The notes below the pieces were generated by a model that was given only the letters and a program-made list of their open reading frames with translations, did no database searches and was not told the DNA's origin. Below, in pieces: positions 19,291 to 51,873 of a DNA stretch of 64,000 bases (positions are counted from its first letter, which is position 1; each line of letters begins with the position of its first letter). Source of the DNA: Calliopum simillimum (taxonomy: Eukaryota; Arthropoda; Insecta; Diptera; Lauxaniidae). Where the stretch lies: positions 1,674,001 through 1,738,000 of the forward strand of contig OX638372.1 in assembly GCA_951812925.1 (NCBI GenBank). Direction: 5' to 3'. A program made the translations under genes and the position numbers.

Positions 19291-19955
19291 TTTATTATTT
19301 TTATTAAATATTCCTAACTTTAGCACCTTTAGATCGATTTGTATCGCTATTACCACACGATTTTTATGATTTTTTTTCCAACAATTTATGATAAATTATT
19401 AAAAACTAAAATAAAACGAAAAATTAATTATAAAAACATAATTTTTTTTAAATGCAGCGCTAGTTTGTACGAAACTTTGCAATCTCCAAAAAATTTTCGT
19501 ATATTTGTAATTACTGGTTTTTAAACTTACTTTTTAAGCTTTTTGGCATACGCAAAACATACATTAAATAGATAAGTGCGCCTTCGTATAAGTCCCATAG
19601 CTTAGAAAGCTAGTGAGCCAAAATGGACGACGAAAAATATGCAATGAAATTTTTTTTAACACTCATCTTAATATGGATGGGTAAGGAAATCCAAGAATCG
19701 GGAAAGTTGTGGCTAGAGATAAAAGTAATCGCAAGGGATCGTGACAAATGGAGGCGTTGCTCCTCTTAAGTGTTGCAGGAGAATACAGAGATACATAATA
19801 TGGGTTTCCTTTAGCCTTTGACAAATAAGAACCATTAACGAATAGCAATTTCTCTTAACGTCTGCTATCTTATATTTTGTAAATCGGATCTGATTATCTT
19901 CGAATAGTACTTTTAACCCTATTCTGGATGTTAGGTAAAAAAACAAAGGAAAAGG
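19291..19955. other. Presumed 5' region of dlg1 S97 transcript
   Basis: Lies upstream of the dlg1 start codon. No recognisable coding exon. The overlapping minus-strand open frames at 19663-19946 show no known domain. Confidence 0.4.
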
Positions 19956-20414
19956 ATAGGTATAGGTATAGGTATAGGTATAGGTATAGGTATAGGTATA
20001 GGTATAGGTATAGGTATAGGTATAGGTATAGGTATAGGTATAGGTATAGGTATAGGTATAGGTATAGGTATAGGTATAGGTATAGGTATAGGTATAGGTA
20101 TAGGTATAGGTATAGGTATAGGTATAGGTATAGGTATAGGTATAGGTATAGGTATAGGTATAGGTATAGGTATAGGTATAGGTATAGGTATAGGTATAGG
20201 TATAGGTATAGGTATAGGTATAGGTATAGGTATAGGTATAGGTATAGGTATAGGTATAGGTATAGGTATAGGTATAGGTATAGGTATAGGTATAGGTATA
20301 GGTATAGGTATAGGTATAGGTATAGGTATAGGTATAGGTATAGGTATAGGTATAGGTACAGGTATAGGTATAGGTATAGGTATAGGTATAGGTATAGGTA
20401 TAGGTATAGGTATA
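19956..20414. repeat. (GGTATA)n microsatellite, about 76 copies
   Basis: An almost perfect hexanucleotide array of about 459 bp, with a single base change (GGTACA) near 20359 seen by eye. The 169-aa Arg-Tyr alternating open frame across it is a translation of the repeat and not a gene. The homogeneity suggests recent expansion or replication slippage. Confidence 0.97.
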
Positions 20415-20489
20415 TATGTAAAAATACTTTTTGTTAAAGTACCTTAAAGCTCCATTTAAAGATAACTAGATCCAATTTACAAAAGGAAT

Positions 20490-26472: not shown

Positions 26473-26488
26473 AGTAACGGGTGCGACA
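26473..26488. repeat. AGTAACGGGTGCGACA direct repeat, copy 1
   Basis: A 16-base exact match to 27194-27209, in the same orientation and 721 bp apart. The two copies bracket the Harbinger-like MITE and lie downstream of the Fanzor gene. Confidence 0.8.
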
Positions 26489-26701: not shown

Positions 26702-27145
26702 GGCCTAGTTTACATAGATATTCATAATCAAAAAAATCATATATTTGGTGATTTTTTAATCATGAAATGAATGAGGAAACGATGCCACTTCACGCAATCA
26801 AACAGAGTTGTGTTGTAAAATGTTTCACAATTTGTTCCTTTTGGGAGTAAAATAATACAGTTTTCGTGAAGAAATCTACGAGATGGATGAAATAAGTGAT
26901 TAATAGCAACCTTTGAATCAGTGCCAACAACATTTGAGAAACCAAACAAAATTATCTCACAGTTTGACACAAATTTGTCGCATGAAAAAATAATACAAAA
27001 AAATATTAAAATAAATAGCATTAAAAAAGTAGTAAAATATTACTAGTAATCTAAAATCACTTGAATGTGAACAAAATATAGTTTTAATCATGAAGCAAAA
27101 AAATTCATGATTATTTTGATTATGAATGTCTATGTAAACTAGCCC
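26702..27145. mobile_element. 444-bp PIF/Harbinger-like MITE
   Basis: Terminal inverted repeats of about 38 bp: the left starts GGCCTAGTTTACATAGATAT and the right ends ATGTCTATGTAAACTAGCCC. TTA lies on both flanks (26699-26701 and 27146-27148), the 3-bp duplication typical of PIF/Harbinger. No transposase; the minus-strand 94-aa frame inside has no recognised domain. It is inserted about 230 bp beyond the Fanzor stop codon. Confidence 0.85.
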
Positions 27146-27193: not shown

Positions 27194-27378
27194 AGTAACG
27201 GGTGCGACAAAAAGGGTATGTTTCGGTTGAAACACCCTGTTGGAACGCGCATTCTATAGAGAATCGATTGTTTTAATTCTTATTTAATTCGCTGTAACCC
27301 TTTCAGACCCAGACTACACGATTGTGTTATCTGAATTTTCCAGAGTTAAACCATTTTTATTTATTACAATAAAATCGG
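27194..27378 (-). ncRNA. Candidate Fanzor guide-RNA (omega-RNA-like) region
   Basis: Placement is inference: in TnpB and Fanzor systems the guide RNA is made from the region at or just beyond the 3' end of the nuclease gene. Here the 3' flank (minus sense) holds a poly(A) signal, then a near-palindromic ATTCTCTATAGAAT. At 27214-27236 there is a hairpin whose 9-bp stem has a two-base bulge and a four-base loop (TGTTTC, AACC, GAAACA at its heart). The region ends in the AGTAACGGGTGCGACA repeat, copy 2 (27194-27209). Nothing in the sequence alone proves transcription or guide function. Confidence 0.3.
27356..27361 (-). promoter_or_regulatory. AATAAA polyadenylation signal of the Fanzor gene
   Basis: AATAAA on the minus strand, about 18 bases beyond the TGA stop at 27379-27381. 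Confidence 0.55.
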
Positions 27379-29235
27379 TCAAGTACATACATTTTTCGCT
27401 ATACCAGAAATAGTAGTACTTTTACAAAAATTTTCATTTTTTTTGATACCGGCAATAATACATTGGCCCAAGTACAATATATTAGCACCAGCATTAACAT
27501 CACGATTCCAACAAGTATTGCAATTTGGACAAAATTGATACCTGTGTGGTGATCGTGATGTTTTATTTTCAAAATAACAATTTGCACATAGCTTAGTGGT
27601 TCTATATTCATTAACTAACATAACGTCAACATTTTTATGTTCTCGCAATGCCCGTACAAATTTCCGATGTGGTGTCCGTATATAGCCGCGCACTGGTGAC
27701 CCTGATGAGATTTCACTTGAACCGATACAAATTAGAGTCGATCCATTATTACCAGGTCCAACAAGTTCTTTAGCCAGCTTATGACAAGTCTTCTCTACAC
27801 AAATGTATTTTTGTAATTTTAATCTGGTTACTTTACGTTGACTGAAAATCATTTGTTTTTCAAGAAATATCTCCAATTCGTATTGCGTATAGTTCTCCAG
27901 ATCCTCAATTGAATTGGCCGAATATTTTGTATTTTCTGGGCACATTGAAGTGAATCTTTTTAATTTACATTTGCGCGAATAGAATCCGCTCATATGTTGA
28001 TATGTAGAATTTTTCAATTTAATTGGCTTTCCATTACGAACTCCACCATATATCAAACGTAATCCCGGATCAAGACCAATTTTGTTGGCATATTCTGTTG
28101 AGCGTATTTTCTCCAAATTGACATTTGTATAGTATTCAATTTCTTTGTTTTCGCCTCGAATTGCTGAAGTTCTTTTTCGTTTTACAGAATTCTTTGCAGT
28201 ATTTAACTTTACTATTGGTTTTCGCATTAGAAACGATACAGCTACACCGTCGGTCTGTAAAGAATAATCAAATTTTTTCTCTGACAAGGATTGAGCATAC
28301 GGAATTTTGAAATATTTTTGCCAATGTTCTGCACGATCGAAAGTTTTCCATGGACCCTTGTACAACTTTAACGAACACAACAGCGAATGGAAGGCATACG
28401 AATCATAGCGAATATGATGTGCTCCGTGTTTGAATACGGGAATCATTGAGAAATTTCGATAATTGTTTCTTTCGTTGAATCTTTGTAGATTGAAAAATAG
28501 TTTAATGCCTGTTGACCAATATAGTTTTTTATTTTTCAAGTTGGATAATTTTTCACCATTCCATTGTAATTCGTCGATCAAATGAATCAATAGATCAAAA
28601 TCTGGCTCTTTGTTTTTATTGTCATCTTGATCGCAGAATAAATAGTTTAATGTATTGTAGATTTTTGTATTATCTTCAGTGAATTTCTTGAAAAACCTTC
28701 GTAGTCTACTATACGCATGCATCCATATGTTGTTGTGAAATATGACGCTATACTGATTGGCGGAATCGATGAATAAATTTGATCGGTATGCACTGTTGTA
28801 AAACGGCAAATCCTTACGAAATTTAGCATAGTCCTCGTCGATAATGTACTTTGATTTTTTCTTTACCATTAAATGATAATAATAATCGGCAAATTTTATT
28901 TCGTCAAAATCTCCAGCTTTCCATTTTCTCATTAGAACAAAATGTATATATCTGTGTGTTTGTGTAGAAAAATAATGACATTGTAACTCTTGAATTGTAT
29001 ATTAAAAGAAATATTATAATTACCTAGAAACTTCTACAAAGAGTGCCGACATTTCGTCAACGTCTTGTTGAATTTTATGGTAAATTTCTTCATTCTTGCA
29101 TGTTGAAAATAGAGCTTTTTTTATTACAAATGATGTATATTGTTTACTACTATTGTTAAAATCACTTAGTCTTTTCGCCATTGAAATTTCAATTCTTACG
29201 AAATTTCCTGTCTCTATGACGATAATTTCAATCAC
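27379..29235 (-). CDS. Fanzor: eukaryotic TnpB-like, predicted RNA-guided nuclease
   Basis: Exon 2 (28951-27379) contains a 517-codon frame from its internal Met. Numbered from that Met: RuvC-I KIGLDPGLR (Asp288); the RuvC-II region ICIGSSEISSG (Glu407), followed by NEYRTTKLCANC (Glu442); a Cys4 zinc finger (Cys449, 452, 468, 471); and RuvC-III NRDVNAGANI (Asp478). This order is diagnostic of TnpB/Fanzor. Exon 1 (29235-29024) ends AG before GTAATT; after a 72-bp intron ending ACACACAG the frame continues without a stop, giving 594 residues. An alternative start within exon 1 is the MAKRLSDF methionine, which has a better CAATGGC context. A basic patch, VKRKRTS, at 250-256 could be a nuclear signal. 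All metal-binding residues are present and no lesion is seen. Known: Fanzors are DNA nucleases guided by an element-encoded RNA. Activity here is inference. Confidence 0.92.
28952..29023 (-). other. 72-bp intron of the Fanzor gene
   Basis: Begins GTAATT after CTAG and ends with a pyrimidine-rich TTATTTTTCT then ACACACAG. The splice restores a continuous frame (phase 2 to phase 2) between exon 1 and the main frame. The size is typical of fly introns. Confidence 0.75.
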
Positions 29236-29492
29236 TTATAGTTTTCTGAGTTCGATCACTGGATTGTGTAGCAATCAAAAACACACACTTTATTTAATTA
29301 TAAAATGGTTTATTTAAATCACAAACGTTTATTTTAACACGGTACAATTGTTTGTTTTACTGTTTATTTACATTCAAAATCTTATATTTTAATTAACACT
29401 TTATTTACTTTCACTGGCACTGTGTGTACAACCTTTTAGCTTTGTTGCTTAAAATCAACTGTGTTCAGCTGTCATGAACAGCTCCTTTTAAA
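29236..29492. other. 5' flank of Fanzor
   Basis: No gene. Contains a CAGCTGTCATGAACAGCT near-palindrome at about 29467-29484, just outside the GATATC-rich element. A transposon end for the Fanzor-bearing element was sought here and not found. Confidence 0.4.
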
Positions 29493-30557
29493 CCCGATCA
29501 AAAAAAGTATATCAAAAATATATCAAAATGATATCCAAAATTTGTCAGTGACATACAAGATTTTGATAAAAAAAGGATATCACAGTGATATACGGAATGT
29601 AACGCTTTTTGTATATCACCATGATATCAAAAAAAGATATCAAAATGATATCAAAAAAAGATATCAAAATGATATCAAAAAATGATATCAAAATGATATA
29701 CAAAAATTGTATATCAATGATATACAAAATTGGTATATCATTTTGATATCCATTTCTGATACAAAATTGACATAACCAAATTTTGCAATATCGTATATGA
29801 TCGTCGGCAACAAGTTTTTAGAAATTGCCCGCATGCAGCAAATGAATGTAATGCCGGTTTTTTTAACTCAATTATATGTTTGTGCTTTTTCACTAATTTC
29901 ATGAGAAAATTCACTTACTAAAATTAACTGTGCGTCCGCTTTCCATAGCTTTTGTTTTCCCAACCACAGGCTTACAACAACTGAAGGGAGTGTCGGTTTT
30001 TTTGCACTCAATTATATTTGTGTGCTTTTCACTAGTTTTAGTAGAAAATTCACTTCTTTTACACTAAAATTGACTGCGCGTTTGTCTTCTAAAGTTATCT
30101 TTCCATAAAATCCTCAAACGAAAACGTCAATTTTGACATATCAGCAGCTGATAAATTTTTGATATCATTTTGATATACATTTCTGATACAAAATTGACAT
30201 GTCATTCAATGATATCAAAAATATATCAAAATGATATACAAAAAAAGGATATCAGCCGCTGACAAATTTTTGATATCATTTTGATATACATTTCTGACAC
30301 AAAATTGACATGTCATTCAATGATATCAAAAATATATCAAAATGATATACAAAAAAAAGGATATCAGCCGCTGACAAATTTTTGATATCATTTTGATATA
30401 CATTTCTGATACAAAATTGACATGTCATTCAATGATATCAAAAATATATCAAAATGATATACAAAAAATGGATATCAGCGGCTGATACATTTTTGATATC
30501 ATTTTGATATACATTTCTGATACAATGACAAGAACTTGACAAGTTTTTTTGATCGGG
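29493..30557. mobile_element. GATATC-rich terminal-inverted-repeat element, copy B
   Basis: Same ends (CCCGATCAAAAAAA and inverse) and same order of blocks as copy A at 901-1961. It has only three of the ~22-bp GATATC units at the left but four of the larger units at the right (about 30150-30500), so the two copies differ by tandem-array length. It lies between the Fanzor gene and the first recognisable exon of the esterase pseudogene. The flanking dinucleotides are AA and TA, so a target duplication is not obvious here. Confidence 0.8.
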
Positions 30558-30756
30558 TACCCATATGAATATTCTAGAATTGCATTAGCGAAACATCTGG
30601 CAACATCTCGTTGATTCCTTCGGCTAATAGTTTCTTGACAAAACTTGGCATCACTGTCAAGTTCTTTCGTGACGTCACTGTTTTTATTGACATCGAACTG
30701 TCTTTGGTGCCGAGCCACCAGTTGGACATTTGCGCTTCAAGGTAAATCCCATAAAA

Positions 30757-31401: not shown

Positions 31402-31561
31402 TATTGAAACTCACGGTTTGAATTGTAGAATGAATAAAAGATTTTTATTTAGGAAGAAAAAAGTTCTGTATCACAAGAAAAATTGTTTTAGGATGAATGA
31501 AAAAAATCTGACAATAATTTTTTCATTGAATTTGAAATACTAAGATTGCTTAAATTCAACA
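31402..31561 (-). repeat. 3' LTR of the copia element
   Basis: 160 bp. On the plus strand it reads TATTGAAACTCACGG to AAATTCAACA. Identical by eye to the 5' LTR. Confidence 0.93.
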
Positions 31562-31570
31562 CCCCTTCTC
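31562..31570 (-). promoter_or_regulatory. Polypurine tract of the copia element
   Basis: In element sense GAGAAGGGG directly abuts the TG of the 3' LTR. It is the plus-strand primer site for reverse transcription and overlaps the end of the coding region. Confidence 0.8.
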
Positions 31571-31781
31571 AATCTTGCAATCCTAATTTCAAAGATAATA
31601 TATTGAATCTAGTTATATCCAAAGATTTGGTAAATATATCTGCAAGCTGATTTTCAGAACTGATTGGTGTTAACTTGATGAGTTCCTTTTCAATGCAGTC
31701 CCTGATGAAATGGTGTTTTATATCAATGTGTTTTGCTCTCTTTGATTCCGATGCAGCCTCTATTGTCCTCAAATATTTCAA
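31569..31781 (-). pseudogene. Frameshifted C-terminal end of copia RNase H
   Basis: A separate frame continues the RNase H domain: SESKRAKHIDIKHHFIRDCI, then SENQLADIFTKSLD, the usual C-terminal blocks of copia polyproteins. The main frame runs past them in the wrong frame and stops at 31723, so a single-base indel lies in the overlap, 31723-31781. Without this segment the RNase H lacks its conserved final part. Confidence 0.85.
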
Positions 31782-34700
31782 CAGATTGATTATTTATTTG
31801 CTTAAGCTCTTTTAGTATTCCATGAAGCCAAACTGCTTCCGCTGTTGCTGCACTTAAGGCAATGTATTCTGATTCGCTTGATGATAGTGCAACAGTCACT
31901 TGTTTCTTGCTGGACCATGACACTGTACATCCATAAACTTGAAACACAAAACCACTAACAGATTTCCGGTCCGTTATGTCACTTGCCCAATCTGCGTCCA
32001 CGAATCCAATAATTGGTACTTTTGAAGTTTCTTTAAAAAACAGCTTCTTTTCTTTAGTTCCCTTTAAGTATCTTACTATTCTTTTAAGACACTGCCAATG
32101 TTCTTCTGACGGGTTTTGCTGATATCGACCCATATACGACATTGGATAGCATATATCTGGTCTAGCACAGAGCATAATATACATTAAACTTCCCAACATT
32201 TCTCGGTAAGGCTTATCAAGATTACTTTTGTCCTCCTTTTGTAAGAGCTGCAGGCCTTTTTCCATTGGACTTTTAACCGGATTGCAATCCATCATTCCAA
32301 ATTTTGTTAGAAGCTTATCAATGCTAGCTGTTTGCGATAGTTTAATACACCCATCTTGGTTTTCAATTTTGATGCCAAGAAAATGCTTGAGCTCACCACA
32401 ATCGGACATTTCAAAGTTCTTACTTAAGGTGTTTTTTAACCAGTTGATGGAAGCAATCGTCTTACCAGCAATGAGTAAATCATCCACGTACATTATCACA
32501 AACAAAATATCATCATCAGAAAACTTTGTATACAAACAGTAATCATGATTTGATCTAGTAAAGCCAAGATTCAATAGATGCTCATTAAATTTCCGATTCC
32601 AGCATCTAGGAGCCTGTTTCAAGCCATAAAGCGATTTCAGAAGCTTACATGCCTTACCTGGCTCCGACTCAACACCTTCTGGTATTTCCATGTACAATTC
32701 TTCGTTTAAGTCACCATGCAGAAATGCTGTTTTTACATCAAGTTGGTGGAACAATAAATGCTCATGCACACCAACTGCTAGTACAACTCTTATTGTTGTA
32801 AGTTTCGCTACTGGTGCATATGTTTCGTTATAGTCGATTCCTGCTTTCTGAAGAAAACCCTTTGCTACGAGACGTGCTTTGTACCGAGTTGGGACCCCAT
32901 TTTCATCTTCTTTCACGTTAAAAACCCATTTCGATTTCAGCAGTTTCGTATTCTTCGGAGGATGTACTATACTCCACACCTTGTTTTTCTCCATAGATTT
33001 CAGCTCTTCATTGACTGCTTTAATCCACTTGGCCGCATCACTTCTTTCAGCAATTTCTGAGTATACTTCAGGATGATCTGTAGGAACATAATCGGCAGAA
33101 GTTGCTCGATAACCAGAAAAGAAGTCTAACAACTTACGTGGAGGTCGACGCTCACGTTCGCTGCGCCTTAAATTAACCTCAGCTGAAGAATCATTGTTAG
33201 TTTGTGAAGTAACAATATTTTGATTATCAACTGCATCTTCATAGCTATCACCTGCTTCTTCTATTTCTGCATCGAATTCTTCTTGCTCTTCTACAGGCAT
33301 GGAAGACACTTCTTGAACATTGTTTCCTTCAACATTTTGAACATTGTTGCTTTCATAATTTGCCGCGAGAACTTCATTTTCATCATCCCCTTCTTGCTCG
33401 TGATTGCGAATTATTACAAGTTCTTTATTCTCCGCTTTGTTTAATAGCTCGTTTTTGAAAGGAAAGCAATCTTCATCAAATTTGACATCTCTTGCAATGA
33501 TAATCTTCTGCGTGTTCATATCCCAGAGTCGATAGCCATTTGGAGCATAACCAATCATTACCGACTTCCGACTTTTTGAATCCATTTTCTTTCTAAGTTG
33601 GCTGGGTATCCACGCATACGCCTTGCATCCAAATATGCGAAGTTTATCCACATCAGGCTTCACTCCATACCACATCTCAGCCGGCGTAACTGAACCTTCC
33701 AGAGATTTTGTCGGGCTTCGATTTATTAGGTAAACTGCAGTATAAATACCTTCACACCACAGACGCTTTGGAATGTTGGATTCAATTATCATGGATCTTA
33801 CTTTTTCCACCAAAGTTCTGTTAAATCGTTCCGCAACTCCATTTTGTTGTGGAGAGTAAGCTACAGTTGTTTCAAGCTGAATCCCCTTCTGCTTGTACCT
33901 TGCAAGTTGTTCTTTGGAGCTATATTCTCGTCCTTGGTCAACTGTTAACTTCGATATCAAACAACCAAATTTTGCAGTTACAAGTGCTTCGTATTCTTTC
34001 ATTGCTTCAAAAACTTCAGACTTCTTCTTAATGGCGAATACAAATGCAAAGTGAGTGTAGTCGTCAATAAAAGACACAAAATATCTTGATCCATTCCATG
34101 CAACAGGATCAATAGGCCCACAAACATCCGAGTGAATCCGTTCAAGTGGTCTTTCAGCACGATGACGACTTCCATTGAATGGATCACGACTATGTTTGGC
34201 TTCCACACACACGTCACAAAATCCTATTTCCTGAGTTTTCACATCCAAACCATTTGCAAGATTTTTATTGATTAACTCGTTGAATGCTTGCTGTCCAATA
34301 TGGCCGAAACGCTTGTGCCACAACTTCATTTTCTCTTTATTACACATATGTGCAGAAACGCATTTGATGTTTATTTCGATTTCATACAAGCTACCTCGTA
34401 AATATGCGGTAGCTAAAAGTTCTCCATTCTTTAGGATTCTCGCCTTACTTTTACAAAATACAACATCAATCCCAGCATTGGTAAGTTTACGAACCGACAG
34501 CAAATTATCTCGCAACTCCGGAACATATAAAACATCTTTCATTTGTAACTCCACATTTTCACTGCTGAATCCACTTATTTGTCCTGAGTAGTTCGCAATT
34601 AATGATTGATTGTCTTTAGCAACATTAATCAAAACAGCGTTTTGCAATTTTGAAAGTTCTTTGAAGTACCATTTCTCATTCACCAAATGGTCGCTTGCAC

Positions 34701-35511
34701 CAGAATCCAATTTGAATTTTATTTTGGAATTAGTTGTTCCTTTGGAGTTATTCCCCATACCAGCAACAAAACATACATGTGAGATTTTCTTCTTTCCAGT
34801 TGCACTTCGAGCTTCCACTTGTTGACAATCTCTAGCTCTATGACCGATCTTCCCGCATTTAAAGCATTTCCCAACAAATTTCGAGGTCTTCTTTAAATGC
34901 TTCTTTCCCGAAAACGCAGTTTTATCAGTATCATCCTTTTGCTGACGGTCAGACAACTTAATTTCTTCAGCCAGAAGTCTTTCTTTAACGATATCAATTG
35001 TCAACTTAGAATCGCTAAGATTTTGCAATGCAGTGACGAGTGGATCAAATTTTTCTGGTAAGGTCAAGAACAATTGCACCAACAAATCATCTTCGCTCAA
35101 TGTAGCACCTGCTGTCCTTAACTGCCTCACTAAATTTTCAAATCCAATTAAATGTGCAGCTACCGATTCATCTTCTTTCATGCGAAGCGTTGTTAGCTGC
35201 TTGCGCACCAAGACTTGACTCACGATGGATTTCCTCGCAAATCCCATCTGTAGACTCTCCCACATTCCTTTGGTCGAATCCTTATCGCGAATATACGACA
35301 AGCAATCATTATGAACGAATCCCACCAAACGATCCTTTGCTTTCTTGTCCCTTTTTAAAAATTCTTCCTTTGCAGCAGCATCAGTTGGTGGAGAGTCCGT
35401 TAAAACATCCACCAAGTTGAGAGCATCCAAATGCATTCGAACTCTAAACTGCCATTCGTCAAATCCAGTGCCACGGAATTGTGGTATACCATGATCTCTT
35501 GAGTCGCCCAT
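31723..35511 (-). CDS. Copia Gag-Pol polyprotein (frameshifted near the end)
   Basis: 1262 codons. Order along the protein: a Gag region; the CCHC knuckle CFKCGKIGHRARDC (216-229); aspartic protease LDSGASDHLV (Asp269); integrase with the HKRFGH ... CDVC zinc-binding module and DDE residues (SDVCGP, VDQGREYSS, PQQNGVAERFNR); reverse transcriptase with KARLVAKGF, the LDVKTAFLHGDL block and YVDDLLIAG; and RNase H with FVDADWASD and ALSSSESEYIAL. The arrangement PR-INT-RT-RH defines Ty1/copia. The first codons (MGDS) are encoded by the primer-binding site itself, four bases inside the 5' LTR. A one-base lesion near 31750 truncates RNase H; otherwise no stops. Confidence 0.95.
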   Translation of the reverse strand: MGDSRDHGIPQFRGTGFDEWQFRVRMHLDALNLVDVLTDSPPTDAAAKEEFLKRDKKAKDRLVGFVHNDCLSYIRDKDSTKGMWESLQMGFARKSIVSQVLVRKQLTTLRMKEDESVAAHLIGFENLVRQLRTAGATLSEDDLLVQLFLTLPEKFDPLVTALQNLSDSKLTIDIVKERLLAEEIKLSDRQQKDDTDKTAFSGKKHLKKTSKFVGKCFKCGKIGHRARDCQQVEARSATGKKKISHVCFVAGMGNNSKGTTNSKIKFKLDSGASDHLVNEKWYFKELSKLQNAVLINVAKDNQSLIANYSGQISGFSSENVELQMKDVLYVPELRDNLLSVRKLTNAGIDVVFCKSKARILKNGELLATAYLRGSLYEIEINIKCVSAHMCNKEKMKLWHKRFGHIGQQAFNELINKNLANGLDVKTQEIGFCDVCVEAKHSRDPFNGSRHRAERPLERIHSDVCGPIDPVAWNGSRYFVSFIDDYTHFAFVFAIKKKSEVFEAMKEYEALVTAKFGCLISKLTVDQGREYSSKEQLARYKQKGIQLETTVAYSPQQNGVAERFNRTLVEKVRSMIIESNIPKRLWCEGIYTAVYLINRSPTKSLEGSVTPAEMWYGVKPDVDKLRIFGCKAYAWIPSQLRKKMDSKSRKSVMIGYAPNGYRLWDMNTQKIIIARDVKFDEDCFPFKNELLNKAENKELVIIRNHEQEGDDENEVLAANYESNNVQNVEGNNVQEVSSMPVEEQEEFDAEIEEAGDSYEDAVDNQNIVTSQTNNDSSAEVNLRRSERERRPPRKLLDFFSGYRATSADYVPTDHPEVYSEIAERSDAAKWIKAVNEELKSMEKNKVWSIVHPPKNTKLLKSKWVFNVKEDENGVPTRYKARLVAKGFLQKAGIDYNETYAPVAKLTTIRVVLAVGVHEHLLFHQLDVKTAFLHGDLNEELYMEIPEGVESEPGKACKLLKSLYGLKQAPRCWNRKFNEHLLNLGFTRSNHDYCLYTKFSDDDILFVIMYVDDLLIAGKTIASINWLKNTLSKNFEMSDCGELKHFLGIKIENQDGCIKLSQTASIDKLLTKFGMMDCNPVKSPMEKGLQLLQKEDKSNLDKPYREMLGSLMYIMLCARPDICYPMSYMGRYQQNPSEEHWQCLKRIVRYLKGTKEKKLFFKETSKVPIIGFVDADWASDITDRKSVSGFVFQVYGCTVSWSSKKQVTVALSSSESEYIALSAATAEAVWLHGILKELKQINNQSVEIFEDNRGCIGIKESKTH

Positions 35512-35515
35512 AACC
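35506..35515 (-). promoter_or_regulatory. Copia primer-binding site overlapping the start codon
   Basis: In element sense GGTTATGGGC follows the LTR end directly. This matches the start of the known Drosophila copia primer site, which pairs with an internal half-fragment of initiator tRNA-Met. The ATG of the polyprotein lies within it. Confidence 0.75.
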
Positions 35516-35675
35516 TATTGAAACTCACGGTTTGAATTGTAGAATGAATAAAAGATTTTTATTTAGGAAGAAAAAAGTTCTGTATCACAAGAAAAATTGT
35601 TTTAGGATGAATGAAAAAAATCTGACAATAATTTTTTCATTGAATTTGAAATACTAAGATTGCTTAAATTCAACA
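35516..35675 (-). repeat. 5' LTR of the copia element
   Basis: 160 bp, identical by eye to the other LTR. It should contain the promoter and the polyadenylation region. Confidence 0.93.
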
Positions 35676-45149: not shown

Positions 45150-46253
45150 TTACTGCTTGTATTGTATGTAAACGTTATCTCCTTTTTGTATGCTTCCTTC
45201 CTTATGCAGATCAAAATAAACACCCATTTCCGGTTCATTTCTATGAGAACATGGACGAAATCTGTGGGAAATTTCGTTTTTAATAAATTATTTACCAAGA
45301 TGAAATATATTCTCTTACTTCCTTAAAGTCCTCAAAGGCTCAAAATCTGCATTTCTTTCACACGTTACTATATTAATATTGGGTATGATACATCGTAAAC
45401 ACGGTGAATTGAAACGCAAAATTACTGCAGTTTCCAGATCATCACCAATTCGAACCCACTCCCAACGATCTTCGTCAAAAGCATGAATGCATTCATTACT
45501 TTCTACGAGAAAATTACTTCGAAATTGTCGATGATGAACATGATTTTTTTTTTCCAATTGTGCATTCAAGCTCCTAACTGATCGGTCATGCAAAACCATA
45601 AATGGCATAAAATCCTACAAAAGAATAAAATAATTAAAATAAGGGATTGGTAGTTATTTTATAGCAGAATCTACCACTTTTAGTTTACGCCATATACTTT
45701 TTTCAATTATAGGACCCAAGGAAATGTAGAGCCGTAAACCAGATTCTCGGTTGAGTACTGCTTTAGAGACCCATATGTGATGATCAGTATTACATTCGAT
45801 AAGCCGTAAACGATAACCTCTTTTCCTTTTTTCGATAATTCTTTTTTCGTTTGAGTTTACTAGGTGCTTTATATTTAACATGAGAGGTGCTGAGTTAGGT
45901 GCTCTTAGGCACAGGCAATCCTCTGATGTTATTTCTGGCTGTATGCTCAACAATTTAGGGTAAACTCCAGCGAAACGCACCTTATCATCACTATCTAAAA
46001 GCAGCAAACATCTATCCCTGAAATTTTCATAATATATACCAAGTGAATCACATTTTGCAGTGTCTAGTTCCACTCCACCGCAAGACTTTATAGGATACAA
46101 TGTGATTTCTTTCAAGCAGCCAACATGATGCCATTTCTGTTCATCTGGTATTTTAAAACGTTTTTTCCGACTTTTGCGGTATGTACACCATGTAAAAACA
46201 ATGATGGCTCCAACACTAGCACCAACAATTGAAACAGTTAAAATAGACCTCAT
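45150..46253 (-). CDS. mARC: mARC-type molybdenum enzyme (MOSC domain), paralogue 1
   Basis: Mitochondrial amidoxime-reducing component: a molybdenum-cofactor enzyme on the outer mitochondrial membrane that reduces N-hydroxylated compounds with cytochrome b5 and its reductase. Exons 46253-45675, 45614-45319 and 45261-45150; introns of 60 and 57 bp with GT-AG ends; phases agree; 987 bases, 328 residues. Visible: an N-terminal membrane anchor (LTVSIVGASVGAIIVF); MOSC N-terminal beta-barrel motif ITLYPIKSCGGVELD; FRDRCLLLLDSDD; FAGVYPKLL; and the C-terminal MOSC part WVRIGDDLETAVILRFNSPC then LRC, which contains the conserved cysteine that binds molybdenum, followed by PLRTLRKFRPC. Length fits the family (about 330-340). 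Diverges from paralogue 2 more than expected for a fresh copy. No lesion. Confidence 0.92.
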
Positions 46254-46784
46254 ACTTGGCTTTGGTTAAATGTACTTCAAACAGCTGTTGTCTTATCAAC
46301 ACTTGGACAAAGATAAAGAAAATTATTTAAATTGTTTTCGCCATCCAACTATATCTATATCTCTCTGTACAAGTTCGTATTAATGGGATATCTATTTTTG
46401 TTTGTTTTGTATCTTGATAATCTAGCTGAATTACTATGAACAACCTGCGAAGCCGGTATGTTGTTGACTATTTTATTCAGATATTGTTTTTTTGTACAAA
46501 ATTCTCAATTTCTGGCAGCTTAAAGCGAAGAGAATTGCATTCACTTGCTTATCAACTCGTATTTTGAACTTAACAACATGTTTGTTTATTGATAATTAAC
46601 CCGTTTAAGCCCCTTGTGTCCATATGGCAACGCTGCAATGAGTGCGACAAAATCAAAATTTGAAGCACCAGCGAATTAAGATTAACCAGTTAAGACCAGG
46701 CCGCATCCAATCGCTGGGTGTTCACAGCAGCTCACAGTGCTGCTGATGTTAATGGAGTAGACATTTACGTATGTGCTAGGACCC
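46254..46784. other. 5' flank of mARC paralogue 1
   Basis: No coding sequence. It should contain the promoter of the minus-strand mARC gene; no motif can be defended by eye. Confidence 0.4.
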
Positions 46785-47890: not shown

Positions 47891-49184
47891 CGTGGGCTGC
47901 TCGGTATATTTCTGGCCTAATAATGAAAATGCGAATATTTATCATCAAAAATGGTCTTATTGATTTTCAAAGTATTCTCCAGCATGATTTATACAATTTT
48001 GCATGCGCTCAAACCAATTGTCGAAGCACTTTTTCCACTCCGATTGAGACACCTCCAAAACATGGTTTTTGAACGCTTCAACAGCATCTTCTGGCGACGA
48101 AAATCATTGACCACGCATTTTTTTCTTCATGTGTGGGAATAAAAAGAAGTCATTGGGTGCCAAGTCAGGGCTGTACGGCGGATGACCCATCAATTCGACG
48201 TTTTTGCCAGTCAAAAAGGCGCTTGTTTGAGCCGATGTGTGACAGCTTGCATTGTCATGGTGAACAATGATTCGTCTTCTCTTGTTCGTTTTTCGAATTT
48301 CTTCGAAGACTTCAGGCAAATAAATTGTGGTATACCATTTAAAATTGACCGTCCTACGTTGCTCAAGCGGAACAGTCGCCACATGACCAGTTTTGCCGAA
48401 GAAACAGGCGACCATTTGCTTTGAAGTGCTTCCTCCACGAACAACTTTCGTTGGATTTGGCTCGTCTTCGAAGACCCAAACGGTCGATTGCTGTTTTGTT
48501 TCGGGCTCATACGCATAGATCCATGATTCGTCACTTGTGACAATCTTATAAATGTCTTTTGAAGCACCACGATCGTATTTTTTCAACATTTCTTTGAACC
48601 AATCGACAAGAGCCTTTTTTTGACCGATTGTCAAATTGTGCGGGATCCAACGAGAACAAACCTTTTTAACGGCCAGGTGTTTGTGCAATATCAAATGTAT
48701 GCTAGTGGGAGAAATGCCCAAGGATACCTCTATCTCACGGTATGTCACATGACGATCTTGCATTATCAGTTCACGCATGGCATCAATGTTCTCTGGCACA
48801 ACGGCCGTCTTTGGACGACCTTCACGGAATTCGTCTTTGAGCGAGCGTCGGCCACGATTGAATTCATTAAACCAGTTTTTCACAGTGCTATAGGATGGTG
48901 CTTCATCGCCACACAAAGATTTAAGTTCATCGATGCACTCTTGTCGTGATAATCCACGTCGAAAGTTGTGAAAAATGATCGCACGAAAATGTTCACGAGA
49001 TAATTCCATTTTTTTGCCAAATTGATTTTTTCAAGTCACTGTAAACAACGCAAATGATGGTCGTACGTCAAAACGTTCTGAGTACGTTTATGCTTAAAAA
49101 TATCAAACTTTCTAATAGAAATGTCAGATTGCAACTGGCAACACTTAGTGTTGCCTAGGCCAGAAATATATCGAGCAGCCTACG
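47891..49184 (-). mobile_element. Full-length mariner element
   Basis: 1294 bp, flanked by TA (47889-47890 and 49185-49186). Imperfect terminal inverted repeats of about 30 bp: CGTGGGCTGCTCGGTATATT at one end and CGTAGGCTGCTCGATATATT at the other. It encodes one transposase frame with a single nonsense codon. It lies between the two mARC genes. Confidence 0.92.
47957..49009 (-). pseudogene. Mariner transposase with one premature stop
   Basis: Cut-and-paste DD34D transposase. An open frame of 301 residues runs from MELSREHFRAIIFHNFRRGL to KKKMRGQ. It contains the paired helix-turn-helix region, the EFREGRPKT linker, SRWIPHNLTIGQKK, the first catalytic block IVTSDESWIY, the second VHHDNASCHTS and the third PYSPDLAPNDFFLFP, with 34 residues between the last two Asp. 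The TGA at 48104-48106 stands where CGA would be expected (a CpG transition). The frame then continues without interruption for about 48 more codons through EDAVEAFKNHVLEVS to EYFENQ and TAA at 47957. A full 350-residue length fits mariner. Probably inactive unless the stop is read through or is an assembly error. Confidence 0.9.
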
Positions 49185-50659: not shown

Positions 50660-51873
50660 ATGTCTAGTAAGTTTAAACAATATCAAAATACTAACCACCT
50701 GAAATATTTCATCTATTCTTTTACTTACATATAACAGCCACTGGGGCAGTTCCCAGTAAACTGCTGTACAGCATCGGAATCGGGGTCGGTATAACAACTT
50801 TGGCGGGTCTGTCTTACTGGTTGTACAAGCATTTGAAGAAAGATGTAATGCCAACAAAATGGCGCCGTGTGGGTATTTTGGCGCAGCTCAATATATTTCC
50901 AATAAAATCTTGCGGTCCTCTCAAACTTGATGCAGGATCTGAAGTAGAATGTGATGCACTTGGTTTGCGTATACAAGGCTTCAGAGATCGCTGTCTGATG
51001 TTGATCGATTTAAACGATAAAATAATAACGGCTCGCGTCTACCCTAAAATGATTTTGATTGAAAGTGCTATAGTCAATCCAACGACATTATTGTTTAGTG
51101 CTCCGGGTATTGACTCAACCGTGAAATTAGATTTCGCAACACTTGGGAAACAATCTTCTCTCAAAGATGTTAACACATCCATTTTTGGAGTTAATGTTAC
51201 CGGCATGCGGTGTGGTGAATTGTTTGACAATTGGTTTTCAAAAGTTCTTCTTCAAAAAGAAGTCGGCCTACGTTTGCTTTATTTCCCCCATTTAAAGCCT
51301 GTAAGAGCTATAGATCCAAACATGAGAAAGGAACCATTTATAACAAAGCAAGATACGGTATACATAAATTTGGACATTTTCATTTCAACGAATCTAAAAA
51401 CATTTAATTTTTAAGGGTACATTCGGTGACGCCACCAGCTACATGCTTATAAACTTGGCGTCTGTGGAAGATTTAAATACGCGTATGCCAAAGCCTATTG
51501 ATGCGTTGCAATTTCGTGGTAATTTTAACGTTAAAATGGACGAAAGCACTCCATATGCTGAAGATAACTGGGGATGGATCAAAATAGGCGATGAAGCCGT
51601 ATTCAGAAATGTAGCACCATGCGCACGATGTATTGTTCCAAATGTTAACATAGTCAATGGAGAGCGTGATCCCGATTCTGAACCGTTGAGAACTTTGAAA
51701 AAGTAAAATCTAAGTGCATTTGTAAGCAATAATTTTTATTTTTAATTGTTAACTTTTCTAGGTACCGAAAATGGGAGAAATACTCAAGCCCAATAATGGG
51801 TATTCATTTAGGAATTCGCCGGCCAGGATCAGTCAAAATAAACGATGTTGTATATGTGGAAGATAAAAATTAA
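50660..51873 (+). CDS. mARC: mARC-type molybdenum enzyme (MOSC domain), paralogue 2
   Basis: Exons 50660-50666, 50738-51357, 51416-51702 and 51762-51873; introns of 71, 58 and 59 bp; phases agree; 1026 bases, 341 residues. The first exon encodes only MS plus one base. The splice then gives TTGAVPSKLLYSIGIGVGIT, a membrane anchor, which is why this start is preferred over an internal one. Motifs: LNIFPIKSCGPLKLDAG, GFRDRCLMLIDLND, TARVYPKMILIE, YMLINLASVEDLN, the conserved cysteine in NVAPCARCIVPNVN, PLRTLKKYRKWEKY and the terminal beta-strands SVKINDVVYVEDKN. Function as for paralogue 1: N-reductive metabolism on the outer mitochondrial membrane. AATAAA at 51880-51885. Divergently oriented to paralogue 1. 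No lesion. Confidence 0.94.

Follow-up and report, generated by a model that had tools for sequence, protein, structure and literature searches.

A Fanzor1 gene in a lauxaniid fly

The window analysed here is a 64,000-nucleotide stretch of the genome of the fly Calliopum simillimum (Diptera; Lauxaniidae; assembly GCA_951812925.1, contig OX638372.1, positions 1,674,001 to 1,738,000 of the forward strand), and its main subject is a gene for a Fanzor, a eukaryotic TnpB-like RNA-guided nuclease and cousin of CRISPR enzymes. A sequence-only reading had placed an apparently intact Fanzor gene at 27379..29235; these coordinates are correct, and the gene is read from the minus strand, at 27379–29181, with 45 stops on the plus strand. 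The open reading frame (ORF) that starts at its first ATG (28932–27379, minus strand, 517 aa) represents the C-terminal part of the Fanzor protein, the stop-to-stop frame of the gene spans 540 codons (27382–29001, minus strand), and a second short frame with an ATG at 29181 lies upstream of it. Removal of a predicted 72-nt intron gives a 576-residue protein in which the N-terminus of the family is restored: the exon 1 product aligns with the N-terminus of the related proteins P0001–P0007 and P0017, and the predicted junction (VEVSR|YIHF) is contiguous in P0003 (VEVSRYIHF) and in P0017 of Rhagoletis (IELSRYIHF). The earlier statement that there is no stop in about 590 codons therefore fails if taken literally, with in-frame stops at 29023–28952, and holds as 576 open residues once the predicted intron is removed. 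The gene and its catalytic centre comprise the following features.

29024..29181, minus strand: exon 1 of the Fanzor1 gene, from the ATG at 29181 (codons 1–52 and two bases of codon 53)
28952..29023, minus strand: predicted intron, 72 nt, GT...AG, with in-frame stops inside (sequence-based prediction)
27379..28951, minus strand: exon 2, to the stop codon (Pfam PF07282, predicted structure)
28069..28071, minus strand: RuvC-I Asp347 of GLDPG (D in 23 of 23 aligned proteins)
27607..27609, minus strand: alternative RuvC-II Glu501, six residues ahead of the first zinc-finger Cys, C508 (E in 23 of 23)
27520..27588, minus strand: Cys4 zinc finger, C508/C511/C527/C530 (all four Cys in 23 of 23)
27499..27501, minus strand: RuvC-III Asp537 of WNRDVNAG (D in 23 of 23)
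27356..27365, minus strand: overlapping AATAAA poly(A) signals just 3' of the stop codon (sequence)

The 576-aa protein contains one match to the published Fanzor pattern, as given in PMC10711439. RuvC-I carries the DPG of Fanzors (Asp347-Pro-Gly), the RuvC-II glutamate occupies the alternative position (Ealt) six residues before the finger (E501/C508) and the RuvC-III aspartate lies inside the span of 4–8 residues that the pattern allows after the Cys4 finger (D537 after C530). All seven signature residues (three acids and four cysteines) are identical in the 23 aligned proteins, that is, the window protein and 22 of its 41 relatives, one of them trimmed, with fragments and the most distant relatives left out; P0016 stands outside this alignment, and the final WNRDVNAG is missing from its record. 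This identity and the single pattern match bear out the TnpB/Fanzor order of RuvC-I, RuvC-II, RuvC-III and Cys4 finger that had been read from the sequence, and a predicted intact Fanzor active site is supported by both the residues and the alignment.

By profile and by predicted structure, the protein is a Fanzor1, closer over its full length to this group than to Fanzor2 or TnpB. It matches Pfam PF07282 above the cut-off (E 1.1e-8), and a profile search returned Fanzor1 at 1.8e-26 and 2e-17, Fanzor2 at 4.7e-11 and the best chain named as TnpB at 8.9e-5. The best structural match of an AlphaFold2 model (526 residues, predicted local distance difference test score of 78.5) was SpuFz1, with fold alignments covering 433–455 residues for SpuFz1, 182 for Fanzor2 and 177 for TnpB. 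Pfam, profile, fold and motif pattern agree with the Fanzor identity first proposed, and the profile search and structure prediction refine it, with Fanzor1 proteins (SpuFz1, GtFz1 and PpFz) nearest and the RuvC residues aligned, to subtype Fanzor1 rather than Fanzor2. Prokaryotic TnpB was considered and rejected: the model NF040570 (guided_TnpB) scored 31.4 bits against a curated cut-off of 100, and the RuvC-II glutamate, which in the TnpB type lies about 50 residues before the finger, sits here at the alternative position of the Fanzor pattern. PADLOC gave weak matches to Cas12f, Cas12u and Csx1 and nothing else.

Relatives and constraint on the protein

Protein searches found the 41 related proteins, seven of them near full length at 55–60% identity; named relatives come from two Diptera, Rhagoletis zephyria and Diamesa hyperborea, and from the wasp Leptopilina boulardi. 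A 29-sequence tree, built from the window protein plus 28 of the 41 relatives (three trimmed), joins the window protein first to Rhagoletis P0017 (support 0.695) and then to P0003 (0.879); all three belong to a ten-member clade (0.999) to which Diamesa P0028 is adjacent (0.967). The nearest named relative, P0017 (LOC108365044), belongs to the same clade and has a 329-aa model that ends before the catalytic half, while P0028, an unnamed product that comes next in the tree, differs by a long low-complexity N-terminus.

A leave-one-out test of constraint counted a column as deeply conserved if the close relatives keep it and 85% or more of the outer group does so too. Among 76 such columns the window protein departs in 2, each time conservatively, whereas it has a state that none of its seven close relatives shows in 85 (28%) of the 306 variable ones. 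Each close relative shows 2–17 deviations among 198–213 invariant columns and 0–1 among 74–75 deeply conserved columns. Because so few deep columns have changed relative to the share of novel variable states, the Fanzor lineage is, as judged from these alignments, one that has been under selection for most of its history.

Among predicted viral structures (BFVD), A0A0B4VG12 of Tipula oleracea nudivirus ranks first, well ahead of all others (E 4.7e-34, 32% identity), and in third place is an insect granulovirus protein (E 3.9e-18, 20% identity in the structure alignment). A0A0B4VG12, which differs in being carried by a crane-fly virus and is annotated as a transposase, has the look of a Fanzor1 akin to the insect proteins studied here, judging from its predicted structure; the open-licence full-text literature yielded no paper treating nudivirus and Fanzor together. 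Motif-pattern searches matched 6, 1 and 60 stretches in viral contigs and 23 in genome contigs, with no relative among them (in viral contig L001 the motif falls in an unrelated protein), and phage records held no match to the Fanzor protein. That an insect carries a Fanzor1 is no novelty in itself: in the account of Bao and Jurka (2013; PMC3627910) the Hessian fly was the one insect carrier then known, and Saito et al. include arthropods among the carriers of Fz1. No description of a Fanzor from a higher fly was found in the open-licence literature, surveyed mostly at listing level.

RNA structure at the 3' end of the gene

Published descriptions place the guide RNAs of Fanzor and TnpB at the gene's 3' terminus. 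In the present gene, the final 62 codons, spanning the greater part of the zinc finger and RuvC-III, have a calculated fold of −54.9 kcal/mol, and none of 5000 synonymous recodings at gene-wide codon usage was as low (mean −33.6, z −5.08); on the antisense strand the same null gave z −1.92 (174/5000). When 43 windows were tiled along the gene, 40 lay at z −1.71 to +1.89 and the three reaching the last codons at −3.43 to −4.96, the excess of calculated RNA structure being limited to about the last 97 codons. The segment 27564–27195 (minus strand) has a minimum free energy of −102.1 kcal/mol, compared with −71.8 in dinucleotide shuffles (z −6.56, 0/100), and 27270–27350 alone gave z −4.07 (0/500). 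Its predicted structure is an array of hairpins.

27195..27564, minus strand: candidate omegaRNA (reRNA) scaffold, hairpin array, made up of the last 62 codons and 184 nt of 3' flank
27496..27562, minus strand: hairpin 1, 28 pairs, within the zinc-finger and RuvC-III codons (RNA fold)
27446..27494, minus strand: hairpin 2, 20 pairs over 49 nt, coding (RNA fold)
27381..27421, minus strand: hairpin 3, 16 pairs, before and into the stop codon (RNA fold)
27349..27380, minus strand: hairpin 4, 12 pairs, at the poly(A) signals (RNA fold)
27295..27348, minus strand: hairpin 5, 19 pairs, 3' flank (RNA fold)
27247..27292, minus strand: hairpin 6, 15 pairs, 3' flank (RNA fold)
27213..27238, minus strand: hairpin 7, 10 pairs, with a T run next to it and, beyond that, a 15-mer that recurs at 26474 (RNA fold)

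The array ends at about 27210, adjoining the T run and the 15-mer. Because the gene end folds beyond what coding needs, it likely doubles as a guide RNA, and an omegaRNA scaffold that overlaps the zinc-finger and RuvC-III codons is the likely, and most economical, reading of the calculated structure. A search of Rfam over 26–31 kb gave no guide-RNA family among eight matches, all of them sub-threshold; seven were microRNA models inside an AT-rich miniature inverted-repeat transposable element (MITE) and the eighth was RsmY, and all were set aside.

Promoter region and neighbouring mobile DNA

That MITE lies upstream of the gene, beside sequence that may belong to the Fanzor promoter.

29493–30557: AT-rich MITE of about 1.06 kb, with a second copy at 901–1961 (copies 79% identical)
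29485..29492, minus strand: TTTAAAAG at the MITE edge, TATAAAAG without the MITE; probably the Fanzor promoter's TATA box (two MITE copies and their flanks)
30567..30579, minus strand: perfect three-unit heat-shock-element-like motif, just upstream of the TATA box once the MITE is removed

The MITE has the terminal inverted repeat (TIR) CCCGATCAAAAAAA, internal GATATC-rich palindromic repeats and extreme RNA-fold z-scores (down to −10.8), and TA stands on both sides of the 901–1961 copy. Excised in silico with TA as the target duplication, it leaves GGGTATAAAAGGAGC as the upstream sequence. We take TATAAAAG to be a TATA box from the consensus, and the motif at 30567–30579, which may be a heat-shock element, is matched to that consensus as a motif only; two perfect sites of this type occur in the window against 0.89 expected in single-base shuffles. 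The MITE seems to have inserted in the Fanzor TATA box, which without it reads GGGTATAAAAGG with the heat-shock-like motif adjacent. The Fanzor promoter was probably TATA-driven and perhaps stress-responsive before the MITE altered it, and the gene may once have been heat-inducible.

A scan for TIRs with target duplications around the Fanzor gene yielded 19 candidates against 5–21 in 20 shuffles, nothing above background, and a wider blastn search for the ends of a Fanzor element produced nothing persuasive, its best pair being 18 nt long (E 0.093); the 64-kb window holds no second Fanzor copy. The exact 15-mer GTAACGGGTGCGACA occurs in direct orientation at 26474–26488 and 27195–27209, the latter abutting the structured RNA region, and with up to three mismatches it has four matches (two exact), a number reached in none of 100 shuffles. 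It is a direct rather than an inverted repeat and may mark an end shared between transposons, or else be the target duplication left by a later 706-bp insertion containing another MITE. A downstream MITE is seen at about 26703–27145, with imperfect inverted ends (46 nt, 89% complementary) and TTAG on both sides.

The sequence-only reading had described every nearby DDE transposase as broken. This is true of the two mariner-like frames checked, in a search that did not cover the window exhaustively: one transposase of mariner type (48104–49009) is nearly complete with a stop near its C-terminus, and a second frame, at about 43.9–44.5 kb, is broken. It is not true of a Copia element (31402–35675, minus strand), which retains a 1262-codon open frame with an integrase core, 160-nt long terminal repeats (LTRs) that are 100% identical and a 5-bp target duplication (ATAAA), and which is, by these sequence features, a very recent insertion. 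Given this open frame and the identical LTRs, not every nearby mobile element has decayed. Elsewhere in the window, exons for a MOSC N-terminal domain at 45657–46265 and 50695–51411, on opposite strands and about 5 kb apart, are probably a duplicated host gene pair, and a microsatellite with a six-base, GGTATA-like unit (19716–20465) opens ORFs of 170–250 codons in several frames.

Proposed mechanism and alternatives

We consider it probable that the locus, predicted to make a 576-residue Fanzor1 nuclease together with a likely guide scaffold, serves the transposon that probably brought it. The account starts from what is observed directly, namely the open frame, the signature residues, Fanzor1 membership by profile and predicted fold, and the excess of calculated RNA structure at the 3' end. 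A spliced mRNA would give the Fanzor1 protein, and a separate or processed 3' RNA, running from about 27564 to 27200, would bind that protein and end in a guide copied from the flanking DNA. The complex would then cut matching DNA beside a short motif, for example at an emptied donor site, where the cut would help the element to be kept or copied, with the transposase presumably supplied in trans because none was found next to the Fanzor gene.

Several results weigh against this account. Permutation of codons within the stretch weakens both the structural signal and its strand bias (11/5000 sense, 22/5000 antisense), the 3' flank alone gives a weaker value (z −2.92, 2/500 shuffles), and, measured against dinucleotide shuffles, three of the 190 background windows, drawn with 19–21 kb and 29.2–30.6 kb excluded, fold more extremely than the coding part. 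The weakness of the dinucleotide results leaves the codon test to carry the guide-RNA argument. The structure might accordingly be something other than a guide RNA, such as an inverted repeat, arisen by chance or otherwise, or a precursor of small silencing RNAs, and the window does contain other strong inverted repeats besides those background windows, such as the MITE at 29.5–30.5 kb; we regard this as rather doubtful, since the structure lies where Fanzor guide RNAs lie and, at gene-wide usage, beats every synonymous recoding with a bias towards the sense strand. A further point concerns the protein, which deviates at 34 of the 230 columns where its seven close relatives all agree, the most of the group; this excess may reflect branch length or mild relaxation. 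It would also suit a copy that was recently inserted or has become stranded, intact for lack of time and no longer expressed or mobile, as would the lack of detected element ends and the position of the MITE at 29493–30557 in the presumed TATA box. We take this to be quite possible while leaning against it, because a copy free of constraint sits poorly with so few changes in the deeply conserved columns and with RNA structure present at the codon level.

Two other histories seem to us improbable. Arrival with an insect DNA virus of the nudivirus, baculovirus or ascovirus type, integrated or passed on, would fit the nudivirus and granulovirus structure matches and the spread through insect viruses proposed by Bao and Jurka (2013), but is unlikely, given that the relatives at 55–60% identity are closer than the nudivirus protein at 32% and that Pfam showed no DNA-virus gene in the ten further window frames submitted to it, a search that was not exhaustive. 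Domestication, in which a Fanzor without its transposon is kept for a host function, would account for the intact frame, the predicted intron and the lack of detected ends; we hold it to be very unlikely, as the missing ends may equally be unknown or decayed and the relatives found are diverse.

Comparison with known Fanzor systems

An intact Fanzor1 with a codon-level guide-RNA footprint would make the role of Fanzors in animals testable in a fly, and it raises the questions of whether the spliced nuclease and its guide are expressed and whether emptied donor sites are cut. The synonymous-codon footprint could also serve as a cheap guide-RNA detector for other Fanzors, for which one genome sequence is enough.

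Like the present gene, the Fanzor1s described by Bao and Jurka (2013) from Mayetiola destructor and from several insect viruses (among them HVav-1, SFav-1 and HAgv-1) are insect-associated. No transposase is known for the viral Fanzor1s, which are reported to have TTAN target duplications and 13-bp terminal repeats, none of which was found at this locus; the TTAG flanks of the downstream MITE resemble these duplications, with no link established. The Fanzor1 proteins SpuFz1 (Spizellomyces punctatus), GtFz1 (Guillardia theta) and PpFz (Parasitella parasitica) match the predicted fold across most of the protein, and profile alignments with SpuFz1 and GtFz1 show the alternative RuvC-II glutamate, the finger and RuvC-III in the same order, whereas identity to these Fanzor1s in structure alignments is only 13–17%. 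What is distinctive of this Fanzor1, as far as the calculated folds go, is the long apparent overlap between guide scaffold and catalytic codons: for GtFz1 the reported overlap of guide RNA and coding sequence is 17 aa, compared with a candidate overlap of 62 codons here. We tentatively propose, with doubt slightly outweighing confidence, that a spliced and functional animal locus carries a hairpin scaffold of about 370 nt, half of it inside the codons of the zinc finger and the RuvC-III Asp, in which the same DNA would be selected as both enzyme and guide over an overlap far exceeding that of GtFz1.
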